This document shows positions 8,591 to 11,580 of a DNA stretch of 56,391 nt, in pieces. Positions within the stretch are counted from its first letter, which is position 1; every line of letters begins with the position of its first letter. Origin of the DNA: Archaeoglobaceae archaeon (GTDB lineage: Archaea > Halobacteriota > Archaeoglobi > Archaeoglobales > Archaeoglobaceae). Both the position numbers and the translations under genes were made by a program. The stretch is from NCBI GenBank assembly GCA_015523335.1, contig WAKM01000022.1, positions 1-56,391 on the forward strand, written 5' to 3'. The notes beneath the pieces are model-generated. The model was not told where the DNA came from. It did not search any database and was given only the letters and a program-made list of their open reading frames with translations.

Positions 8591-9124
8591 TTATAAAAGT
8601 ATAAAAATGCTGTCGGATGATACTGCATAGATCTCGACATTCAATTTTTTAGCCTCCAAAATCACTTCTTTCCCTATTCTCTCATCCAAAACTCCGAAGA
8701 CTATCCTGAGCCTTCTTCCCGTTAATATCGGGCTTTGGATTATCCTATCCCACAGCTTTTTGATCTTCTTCAGCTTTCTGAGCAACCTCCTTTGATCGGT
8801 CTCGATCTCGACGAAGATAACTTCGTCATCCTTAACTATAACCGCATCCGGTCTATATCCGATCTTCGAGAGTTTCGTCTGCTCCGATTCTAAATAGCAA
8901 GTTCCACCGCCTTTCATGAGTTCTTCGATGAGCTTAACCTTTGCGGAGTAGTGATCTAACCCTTCCGTGCTCTTTCTCCTAAAGCTTTTGAGTTCTCTAA
9001 CTGCAATCCTTAGCTCTTCGATCGCCCTTTCAATAGATTTGAAGTTCACTAACCTGTTAATGTTCTCCAACTTTTCTACGATTTCTTCAAGCTCCTTCCT
9101 TACTCTTTCAGTATCTCTCTGCAT
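8591..9124 (-). CDS. Putative PD-(D/E)XK-like nuclease or nuclease-related protein coupled to mutS
   Basis: The 177-aa protein begins with a coiled-coil-like region (1-55). A compact alpha/beta part follows, with YRPDAVIV (D93) and, after a beta turn, VIFVEIETDQ (E106, E108). That spacing resembles the PD...(D/E)XK nuclease core. The usual Lys is replaced by Glu, so activity is uncertain. The C-terminal part (RLRIVFGVLDERIGKEV, VEIYAVSSDS) looks like the closing strands of the same fold. Its ATG lies 25 bases inside the end of mutS, which strongly suggests coupled translation. I cannot name the family with certainty. Confidence 0.55.
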   Translation of the reverse strand: MQRDTERVRKELEEIVEKLENINRLVNFKSIERAIEELRIAVRELKSFRRKSTEGLDHYSAKVKLIEELMKGGGTCYLESEQTKLSKIGYRPDAVIVKDDEVIFVEIETDQRRLLRKLKKIKKLWDRIIQSPILTGRRLRIVFGVLDERIGKEVILEAKKLNVEIYAVSSDSIFILL

Positions 9125-11580
9125 CTTCTCACGATCTTATCCAATTCAACCAAAGCCTGAATCGGAGTTAGATTAACGACCTCAATTTTTGCTATCTCCC
9201 TCAAAAACGATGCGATGCTCCCATCTAAATCCGAGCTTCTCATCTCAAGCAACTCGAAAGCCCTTTTTATAACCTCCTCCGGCAGATTCGCCATGCTTGC
9301 AACCTTAATTCCGTAGCTCTCGCTCGAAGCTCCTCTTCTAATTTTCCTATCGAATTCAATCTTACCGTTTTCTTCTTTAATTCCAAAATGGTAATTCCTC
9401 ACACCCTCAAGCTTGTTTTCGAGCACTGAAAGCTCGTGGTAATGGGTTGCGAACAGAGTCTTGGCTCCTATTCTGTCGTGAATGTATTCCACGATAGCCC
9501 AAGCCAAGCTTAAGCCGTCTTTGGTGCTCGTACTCTTTCCCACTTCGTCGAGCAAAATTAAGCTTCTATTTGTGGCGTTTCTGAGTATCTTTGCTATCTC
9601 ATCCATTTCAACCATGAACGTGCTGTAACCTCTGGTTATATCATCTACTGACCCTATTCTCGTAAATATTCGATCTACAATTCCTATAACCGCATAGCTT
9701 GCCGAAACGAAGCTTCCGATCTGCGCCAAGATTGTAATCAAAGCCACCTGCCTCAAGTAAGTTGACTTTCCGGCCATGTTTGGGCCGGTGATAATCAAAA
9801 TTCTGCTGTTCTTTTCGAGAGTAACGTCGTTAGGAACGAATTTCGTCGTAAGTTCGACGGTAGGATGCCTTCCGTCCCTCACGATTATGTCGTAGCCTTC
9901 GTTCACCTTCGGGCGGGTGTAGTTGTATAGAACTGCAACTTCAGCGAGAGATGCTAAGACATCCAACTCAGCTATTTTGCTTGCGCAGTCTCTTATCCTA
10001 TCCACATGCTTCGCCACTTCGTTCCTAATGCTCTCGAATATCTCATACTCAAGCGATTTTATCTTCTCCTCGCAAGCCAGTATCTTCTCCTCCCTCTCCT
10101 CAAGCTCCGGAATCGTATACCTCTCGGCATTAACGAGAGTCTGCTTTCTCTTGTAATGCTTCGGAACAAGCTTTATCTTCGACTTGGGAACTTCGATGTA
10201 GTATCCGAATACGGTGTTGTATCCAACTTTCAAGCTCTCAATTCCAGTCTTCCGTCTTTCCCTTTCTTCTATCATCTTTATAAAACTCTCATGCTCTCTC
10301 TTCAGATTCCTTAGCCTATCGAGTTCTTCGCTGAAGCCATCCTTGATTATTCCACCCTCCTTAACAGTTATGGGCGGATCATCGACTATAGCGGAATCTA
10401 TAAGTTTGCACACATCGTCAAGCGTATCCAGATTGGATATTATGCTCTGAAGCTTTTTAGATGTAAAATTGAATTGCTTGAGCTTTGAAACAGCCTTAAG
10501 AGAATTTTTCAAAGCAACAAGATCCCTTGCGTTCGCAGATTTAAAGTCGATTCTGCTTACGATCCTCTCCAAATCGTAAACATCTCTCAGGATCTCCCTT
10601 ATGTTCTGTCTCAAGAAGGATTTCTCCTTAAGTTCTTCAACAGCATCGAGCCTGCTTTCTATTTCGTCTATATCGAGCAGAGGTCTCTGAAGCCATTTTT
10701 TAAGCAATCTGCTACCCATTGCGGTTACAGTTCTATCCAAAACTTCGATCAGCGTACCCCTTCTGCTTCCGTCGATTATGTTCTTGCATATCTCCAGATT
10801 CCTGAGCGTCGTCGAATCCAGAACCATGTAATCTTGAGTCGAATACCTTTGCAATCTGAAGTTGAGAGTTTTAAGTAGAAGAGCATCCTTCACGTAGCTT
10901 AAAACTGCTCCACAAGCTCTGATGGATGCATTCGTGAGATCGAGATTCTTAGCTTCAGGAATCGACTCCAGAAGTTTTAGAGCATTTTCAAGTGAGAATT
11001 TTTCCTCCTCAACCTTATGGACGGTTTTAACGATTTTTCTTATTTCGTTCGCAAAATCCTCATCGAAATCATCCGGAATTATGCACTCAACAGGATTGAA
11101 CTTCAAAATTTCGGCTATGACTTCGTCCTTCGACGATACTGTCGTGGTGAAAAACTCACCGGTTGAAACGTCCAAAAATGCAATTCCATAGCCGTCATCC
11201 TCAACGACAGCCATCAGGTAATTATTTTCTTTCGTGAGAAGCTCCTCTTCGATAAGAGTTCCGGGAGTGATTACCCTAACAACTTCCCTTTTAACTAAAC
11301 CTTTCGCTTTGGAAGGATCCTCAACCTGCTCGCATATCGCAACTTTGTAGCCCTTCTCAATTAGCCTCTTTATGTATGGAAAAACCGCATGATGAGGAAC
11401 CCCAGCCATCGGATGCTTTTTATCTCTGGAAGTCAGAACTATGCCCAACTCCCGCGATGCTATCTCCGCATCTTCATCGAATAGCTCGTAGAAGTCCCCT
11501 ACTCTGAAAAATAGTAGGGCGTCCTTATATTTTTGCTTAATTCTATAATACTGTTCCATCATTGGCGTCAGCTTTTTCAT
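9100..11580 (-). CDS. mutS: DNA mismatch repair protein MutS (MutS1)
   Basis: The 826-aa protein has the full MutS1 layout. The mismatch-reading domain I carries the Phe-x-Glu motif (F30-Y31-E32 in GDFYELF). Connector, core and clamp regions follow, and then the ABC ATPase with GPNMAGKSTYLRQ near residue 600, LDEVGKSTS and a FATHYHEL motif. The length equals bacterial MutS1, not the short MutS5-like archaeal forms. MutS1 is patchy in Archaea and probably spread by transfer. No mutL is present in this window. The ATG at 11580 has a TATA box 28 bp upstream, suggesting a leaderless mRNA. It is divergent from a DUF134 gene. Confidence 0.97.
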   Translation of the reverse strand: MKKLTPMMEQYYRIKQKYKDALLFFRVGDFYELFDEDAEIASRELGIVLTSRDKKHPMAGVPHHAVFPYIKRLIEKGYKVAICEQVEDPSKAKGLVKREVVRVITPGTLIEEELLTKENNYLMAVVEDDGYGIAFLDVSTGEFFTTTVSSKDEVIAEILKFNPVECIIPDDFDEDFANEIRKIVKTVHKVEEEKFSLENALKLLESIPEAKNLDLTNASIRACGAVLSYVKDALLLKTLNFRLQRYSTQDYMVLDSTTLRNLEICKNIIDGSRRGTLIEVLDRTVTAMGSRLLKKWLQRPLLDIDEIESRLDAVEELKEKSFLRQNIREILRDVYDLERIVSRIDFKSANARDLVALKNSLKAVSKLKQFNFTSKKLQSIISNLDTLDDVCKLIDSAIVDDPPITVKEGGIIKDGFSEELDRLRNLKREHESFIKMIEERERRKTGIESLKVGYNTVFGYYIEVPKSKIKLVPKHYKRKQTLVNAERYTIPELEEREEKILACEEKIKSLEYEIFESIRNEVAKHVDRIRDCASKIAELDVLASLAEVAVLYNYTRPKVNEGYDIIVRDGRHPTVELTTKFVPNDVTLEKNSRILIITGPNMAGKSTYLRQVALITILAQIGSFVSASYAVIGIVDRIFTRIGSVDDITRGYSTFMVEMDEIAKILRNATNRSLILLDEVGKSTSTKDGLSLAWAIVEYIHDRIGAKTLFATHYHELSVLENKLEGVRNYHFGIKEENGKIEFDRKIRRGASSESYGIKVASMANLPEEVIKRAFELLEMRSSDLDGSIASFLREIAKIEVVNLTPIQALVELDKIVRRCREILKE

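Follow-up and report, generated by a model that had tools for sequence, protein, structure and literature searches.

Introduction

Mismatch repair is stated to have evolved at least twice, once as the MutS-MutL system and once as NucS, which provides a route without MutS (PMC5290159). According to a further article, NucS itself recognises and cuts mismatched DNA (PMC8228993). Some archaea are described as devoid of both systems, which leaves room for further routes (PMC5290159, PMC7690668), and in a paper of 2013 the archaeal mutS and mutL genes are described as confined to halophiles and methanogens (PMC3820547). Here, a contig of 56,391 nucleotides (nt) of an Archaeoglobaceae archaeon (WAKM01000022.1, assembly GCA_015523335.1) was analysed, which is called the window throughout. 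It contains a mutS gene that overlaps with a small gene, and the product of the latter, 177 amino acids (aa) long, is designated P177. It is proposed that the two genes form a MutL-free mismatch repair module in which P177 does the job of MutL, and the probability of this interpretation is estimated at about 0.57.

MutS proteins with a nuclease of their own have been described before. MutS7, including the octocoral mtMutS, carries a C-terminal HNH nuclease and was proposed to perform self-contained repair (PMC3166940). The plant protein MSH1 combines MutS with a GIY-YIG domain, a plant MutS1 is fused to DPD1, and for a glaucophyte MutS1 a C-terminal extension with a weak match to Mrr-like restriction nucleases is mentioned (PMC12292046). 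The pair in the window resembles all of these in that a MutS is tied to a nuclease, in two genomes of a second family even by fusion. The differences are also clear. MutS7 is described as lacking domains II and IV (PMC3166940), whereas the MutS1 of the window has both; in addition, the nuclease of MutS7 is of the HNH type, while P177 is predicted to be PD-(D/E)XK-like and is encoded by a separate, overlapping gene in the Archaeoglobaceae. Among the Pfam matches of MutS and P177 there was no HNH family. The plant proteins have other nuclease domains than P177 (GIY-YIG in MSH1, DPD1 in MutS1), they are eukaryotic, and most of the plant-specific ones are targeted to organelles.

With the canonical MutS-MutL (MutH) system the MutS of the window shares the five domains, the F-x-E motif and the ATPase, but no MutL was detected in its genome, a predicted PD-(D/E)XK protein stands in the place of MutL, and the connector domain has a degenerate loop next to the positions of the MutL contacts. 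NucS/EndoMS is likewise an archaeal nuclease tied to mismatch repair, its fold is the one predicted for P177, and EndoMS is among the nearest structural neighbours of P177; in contrast, P177 did not match the Pfam family NucS_C (PF01939) at E <= 10. Self-contained MutS-nuclease proteins are thus known already, and new in this case are the different nuclease, the MutS1 and the two-gene form. A search of the open-access literature found no description of a MutL-less MutS in Archaeoglobales or of an archaeal MutS-PD-(D/E)XK pair.

Results and Discussion

The mutS-P177 Gene Pair

The source genome is a draft of 1.40 Mb with a completeness of 99.1%, and the window is its contig 22. The mutS product matched Pfam MutS_I to MutS_V, i.e., domains I-V, each above the cut-off, and it reached 993 bits with the NCBIfam model mutS1 (TIGR01070, cut-off 642). 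Both the mismatch-reading motif and the ATPase motifs were found (Table 1). By its sequence the protein is a MutS1, and the lacking MutL partner concerns the pathway and not this class assignment. The ATG of the P177 gene lies 25 nt inside mutS. A preliminary description of this DNA, made from the sequence alone, had proposed a full MutS1 with the Phe-x-Glu motif, followed by a second gene that begins 25 bases inside mutS and encodes 177 aa, with D93, E106 and E108 in nuclease-like spacing, and the gene structure, the motif and the positions of the three residues were confirmed.

Table 1. Features of the mutS-P177 locus, with positions in the window.
Feature	Position	Strand	Remarks
mutS	9100..11580	-	full-length MutS1, 826 aa; Pfam domains I-V, TIGR01070
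P177	8591..9124	-	177 aa; helices 2-26 and 29-50, predicted PD-(D/E)XK core about 53-177; Pfam, AlphaFold2
Overlap of mutS 3' end and P177 start, 25 nt	9100..9124	-	22 or 25 nt in 8 relatives
P177 R91-P92-D93, PD motif, D93 candidate metal ligand	8846..8854	-	invariant in 11/11
P177 E106-x-E108, position of E-x-K with E for K	8801..8809	-	E106 and E108 invariant in 11/11
P177 E79, further candidate acidic ligand	8888..8890	-	invariant in 11/11
P177 K117, in helix 111-129 after the active-site hairpin	8774..8776	-	invariant in 11/11
MutS F30-Y31-E32, mismatch-reading motif	11485..11493	-	
MutS connector-domain stretch, residues 195-219	10924..10998	-	degenerate and shortened; corresponds to the region of Q211/Q212 and beyond in E. 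coli MutS; sliding-window scans
MutS Walker A GPNMAGKST, residues 599-607	9760..9786	-	
MutS DEVGKSTS, end of Walker B	9526..9549	-	

Conservation of the Linkage and a Gene Fusion

The conservation of P177 was analysed in 60 genomes, i.e., the source genome and 59 relatives, and 36 of the 60 belong to the Archaeoglobaceae. P177 was found in nine genomes, five of the genus of the window and two each of the genera g11 and g12. In all nine cases the P177 gene lies on the strand of mutS, and its start overlaps with the mutS 3' end by 22 or 25 nt. MutS was present in ten of the 36 Archaeoglobaceae genomes, and none of the 26 genomes without MutS contained P177. In the tenth MutS genome (G032) the mutS gene runs off a short contig, and the neighbouring gene is thus not visible. 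In another one (G003) P177 and the 3' part of mutS are located near a contig end, and no match to domain I was found. The genes further out, as read by eye, differ between the genera, and thus the pair has been kept and not the region. A scan of the GTDB genomes with one peptide pattern of P177 yielded six loci, all in Archaeoglobaceae; of the named relatives with the same locus, one is a Ferroglobus (record L047).

Whole-genome searches for P177 covered the phylum of the window, with 392 genomes at the widest. A profile search revealed P177 in two further genomes, G152 and G321, which belong to another archaeal family. In both, the frame that encodes MutS contains the match in its C-terminal part, i.e., one open reading frame encodes both parts, and the fused part aligns to the whole of P177, including the helices, with about 30% identity. 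The fusion is present in two of the 51 genomes of that family, and no P177 was found outside the two families among the 392 genomes. A match in G164, a genome of the same class as G152, was too weak (E 5e-4 over 41 positions) and was not used. Recurrence of the gene pair in other genomes, which had been named as a check on the original proposal, was therefore observed in two forms, as an overlap in nine of nine Archaeoglobaceae cases and as a fusion in another family.

That the genes overlap in one lineage and are fused in the other speaks for MutS and P177 forming a fixed complex. Short overlaps between genes occur frequently in the compact genomes of archaea, and in principle P177 might be a small orphan gene that only happens to overlap with mutS. 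Against this stand the linkage in nine of nine cases over three genera and the complete absence of P177 from the 26 MutS-less genomes, and a chance adjacency was refuted by the fusion in the other family, so that next to no weight is given to it.

The distribution is patchy across genera and across the two families, and nucleases of the PD-(D/E)XK type are generally known to be common in defence. Accordingly, the pair could also be a defence or selfish module instead of a repair system. This is regarded as very improbable: P177 matched none of the PADLOC families, searches of phages, plasmids and IMG/VR revealed no P177 homologue, and by eye the adjoining genes in the window look like genes for ribosomal proteins and RNA polymerase. 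MutS itself gave four weak PADLOC matches, all of them across its ATP-binding part.

Absence of MutL and NucS

In the source genome no MutL was found, neither with PF01119 (no match, 11 of 14 controls positive) nor with TIGR00585 at E <= 0.001 (11 of 14 controls over the cut-off). NucS was also not found with PF01939, for which seven of 14 controls were positive. The preliminary description had made its proposal dependent on a genome without mutL, and this absence now holds genome-wide, as does that of nucS/endoMS in the corresponding search.

MutS and MutL were surveyed in the phylum in the same 344 genomes, and MutS domain I was found in 248 and MutL in 239 genomes. All nine Archaeoglobaceae genomes with MutS domain I lacked a MutL over the cut-off, while 229 of the 239 other genomes with MutS domain I had one. 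This contrast of absence (9/9 versus 10/239) had a p value of 1e-11 in Fisher's test, which has to be read with the nine genomes forming one clade and not being independent events. The nine include one genome in one contig and one in two contigs, and thus gaps in drafts do not explain the lack of MutL. The ten other genomes with MutS and without MutL were G107, G152, G160, G187, G196, G214, G250, G276, G307 and G312, and of these only G107 is more than 90% complete. P177 was found in a single one (G321) of the 229 genomes that have both MutS and MutL. The second genome with the fusion, G152, is 89% complete; it gave a single MutS_V match, and no MutL was found.

Several of the genomes without MutL gave short matches to TIGR00585 below the cut-off (about positions 22-70, E 1e-5 or weaker), among them the MutS-bearing genomes G014, G025 and G032, and the source genome had none of these. 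The same pattern was seen in controls below the cut-off, and the matches are therefore attributed to different ATPases of the superfamily to which MutL belongs.

Three further observations were made in these searches. First, G107 (C2:352451, L061), which belongs to another family and is 99% complete, encodes a MutS1 without MutL or P177, i.e., a MutS without a known partner. Second, none of the 26 MutS-less Archaeoglobaceae genomes had a MutL over the cut-off, and NucS_C was over the cut-off in six of them and not in the other 20; most of these genomes are thus without a mismatch repair system recognised in these searches. Third, G002, which belongs to the genus of the window, has a NucS_C match in a frame of 168 aa on a short contig (C34:7379-7699, L040).

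P177 as a Predicted Nuclease

The structure of P177 was modelled with AlphaFold2. The model has N-terminal helices followed by a core with the order alpha-beta-beta-beta-alpha-beta that is typical of PD-(D/E)XK proteins (predicted local distance difference test, pLDDT, 84; predicted template modelling score, pTM, 0.64), and when the core was modelled alone, the values were 88 and 0.81, respectively. The best neighbours of the core in the PDB were Can2, AF1548, SdaI, EndoMS, Cdn1, NucS, PaqCI and BsmI, with Z scores from 8.7 to 7.6, and they are taken to be largely PD-(D/E)XK nucleases. The comparison with EndoMS (5gke) gave a Z score of 8.1 and a root mean square deviation of 4.1 over 111 aligned residues, which is level with the other nucleases. 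The neighbours include restriction enzymes and Holliday-junction resolvases. The nuclease-like fold proposed earlier is thus supported as a prediction.

On the sequence level the similarity to known families is small. A search of the PDB sequences with P177 gave nothing below E = 0.06. The Pfam family PDDEXK_10 (PF07788) was matched narrowly over the cut-off (21.9 versus 21.2 bits) and with residues 95-164 only, and the score for AHJR-like (PF18743) was 14.2 bits and thus below the cut-off of 26.1. When the 11 P177 members were compared with these families at E <= 1, seven matched PDDEXK_10 and nine AHJR-like. Within the 11 sequences, with identities down to about 30%, the residues E79, R91-P92-D93, E106, E108 and K117 are invariant. 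The acidic PD...(D/E)x pair of the PD-(D/E)XK superfamily is represented by P92-D93 and E106 in all of them. The ratio of nonsynonymous to synonymous substitution rates (dN/dS) was between 0.045 and 0.144 in nine of 12 pairs with computable dS, with dS above 1.6, i.e., near saturation, in five, and by this sequence measure P177 is under purifying selection.

The resolvases and EndoMS among the fold neighbours would also fit another function of a MutS-bound nuclease. The pair could act mainly in anti-recombination, either by rejecting or resolving mismatched intermediates, or by making double-strand cuts at mismatches for repair by recombination, as has been proposed for plant MSH1. MSH1, with its C-terminal GIY-YIG domain, is described as suppressing ectopic recombination, and double-strand breaks have been proposed for it (PMC12292046); furthermore, the deletion of MutS and MutL in halophilic archaea is reported to be without effect on the mutation rate (PMC7690668). 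On the other hand, the mismatch motif of the MutS is intact, the protein belongs to MutS1, the subfamily that serves replication repair, and there is no detectable MutL or NucS in the source genome that could do the replication repair instead. A mainly anti-recombinogenic role is therefore considered unlikely.

MutS Phylogeny and Decay beside the MutL Contacts

A tree was calculated from the N-terminal 600 residues of 38 MutS proteins with E. coli as outgroup. G001 and G003 were not included in the MutS trees, and G095 was omitted when the MutS proteins were aligned, as its MutS carries a large insert. The eight Archaeoglobaceae MutS and the two fused MutS formed a single clade with a support of 100/98. 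When the fused MutS were constrained to group with the remaining MutS of the family they come from, the tree was rejected (approximately unbiased (AU) test, p = 3.75e-5). A smaller tree showed the same grouping (support 82/95, p = 0.038). The single clade suggests that the link between MutS and P177 is probably old and arose once, followed by transfer or differential loss between the families.

The MutS of G095 is encoded in an open frame of 1407 aa (C1:24189-28016, partly L072 and L062), and this genome also has MutL. Compared to the MutS of the window, the distance from the start of domain I to that of domain V is about 500 residues longer, and the protein probably contains an intein or another large insert near the ATPase part.

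The MutS proteins of the P177 clade were compared with MutL-linked MutS proteins in sliding-window scans for which no region was chosen beforehand. The MutL-linked set was thinned for one over-represented family, to 18 of 24 rows in the first scan and to 18 of 20 in the second. The first scan also omitted four rows of family f7 that lack a detected MutL, and the second contained five of the seven Archaeoglobaceae MutS together with the fused MutS (seven linked or fused rows). For both the Archaeoglobaceae and the fused MutS, the most decayed stretch of 20 residues was the same, i.e., E. coli residues 214-233, a loop of the connector domain. Its conservation was 0.53 in the MutL-linked rows versus 0.12 in the Archaeoglobaceae and 0.05 in the fused MutS. 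The first scan, with more rows of the P177 clade, had the same peak, and the segment 206-227 ranked 10 of 769.

In the crystal structure of the MutS-MutL complex Q211 and Q212 are reported to be buried in the interface of the connector domain with MutL, and residues 673-686 to be protected on MutL binding (PMC4521584). The peak at 214-233 thus follows directly after the contacts Q211/Q212. Differences were also observed at single positions. The position of E. coli M759 is occupied by Asp in five Archaeoglobaceae MutS and by Val in the fused MutS, while Leu, Ile, Val or Met was found in the 18 MutL-linked rows; the exchange M759D alone is described as harmless in E. coli (PMC4521584). In the DEVGKSTS stretch at the end of Walker B, Val is present at E. 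coli position 695 in all seven linked or fused rows versus Ile in all 18 MutL-linked rows, and at position 697, Lys in all seven versus Arg in 17 of 18. As far as can be judged from these alignments, the decay of the loop fits with a loss of MutL, and it is not proof of it.

A Proposed MutL-Free Mismatch Repair Module

The linkage, the fusion, the absence of a detectable MutL, the invariant candidate active-site residues, the MutS clade and the loop decay are established at the level of sequence, and the nuclease fold of P177 is predicted. In the proposed mechanism, MutS1 would read the mismatch via its F-x-E motif and would then become an ATP-bound clamp on the DNA. P177, presumably produced from the same transcript and in step with MutS, would bind to MutS, perhaps via its N-terminal helices. 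By this direct contact it would be brought to the mismatch and would cut the DNA nearby, in one strand rather than in two, with D93, E106 and E108 as putative metal site. It would have the role that is held elsewhere by MutL or by MutL together with MutH, the repair would be completed by ordinary nucleases, polymerase and ligase, and the pair would serve the avoidance of mutations. In the second archaeal lineage the nuclease would be attached to the C-terminus of MutS. The preliminary description had regarded the 177-aa protein as a candidate for a replacement nuclease or adaptor; the results support this, and the MutS tree and the decay scan agree with it, while cutting, MutS binding and the prevention of mutations are parts of the model.

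Various observations weigh against this interpretation. First, the linked MutS form one clade, and the counts given above are thus not independent. Next, the fold assignment is not strong by itself, because a Z score near 8 is modest according to the tool's own note, and Foldseek with the P177 model gave no match at E <= 0.001. As the neighbours are also tied, the evidence consists in the consistency of the neighbour list.

The next point concerns the active site. The catalytic lysine of the superfamily, two residues past the second acid, is replaced by Glu (E108) in all 11 P177 sequences. Together with the helical character of the first 50 residues, this could indicate that P177 is a non-cutting PD-(D/E)XK adaptor that joins MutS to another nuclease or to the sliding clamp. 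An inert adaptor would, however, not need D93, E106, E108 and E79, which are kept in all 11 sequences. Moreover, BamHI works with a Glu at the lysine position of its active site, and thus cutting by P177 is possible. The adaptor function is therefore judged to be quite improbable, and the Glu in place of Lys by itself does not exclude P177 from the PD-(D/E)XK superfamily, with the protein being termed PD-(D/E)XK-like here.

The genomes with the fusion also contribute opposing evidence. In G152 there is a second match to MutS domain I. G321 (79% complete, 6% contaminated) also carries a MutL and a second MutS. Either this draft is mixed, or a MutL may be able to coexist with the fusion. The second MutS of G321 (C7, L059:943-1004) is split between frames, and it may be a decaying copy or result from a sequencing error or from contamination.

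Lastly, the decay of MutS does not follow the MutL contacts closely. Q211 and Q212 are variable also in MutS proteins of MutL users, and the segment 209-213 ranked 179 of 786. The segment 673-686 is moderately decayed (rank 59 of 777), and the segments 593-599 and 756-762 of interface 1 are not decayed (ranks 236 and 356 of 784). In addition, parts of the connector loop are also missing in two genomes that do have MutL, G082 and G326.

Given these points, the balance tips only slightly towards the wider view that prokaryotes have a third way to repair mismatches, besides MutS-MutL and NucS, and that the pair represents it. It would consist of a MutS1 and a dedicated PD-(D/E)XK-like nuclease, which acts in trans in the Archaeoglobaceae and in cis in the second archaeal family, and the loss of MutL would have been accompanied by that of some of the MutS surface next to the positions that contact MutL. 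The mutS-P177 pair is thus a concrete candidate for a further repair route in hyperthermophilic relatives of Ferroglobus, and the prediction is that MutS and one small nuclease are involved. If this is true, an unrelated nuclease can take the place of MutL, with which MutS1 usually works. A possible yield would be a heat-stable mismatch cutter made of two proteins.

A minor observation was made at the locus of a relative. Upstream of its mutS an open reading frame for a radical-SAM-like protein of 1031 aa is located (L048:939-4034), which, as read by eye, has an apparent intein-like insert.

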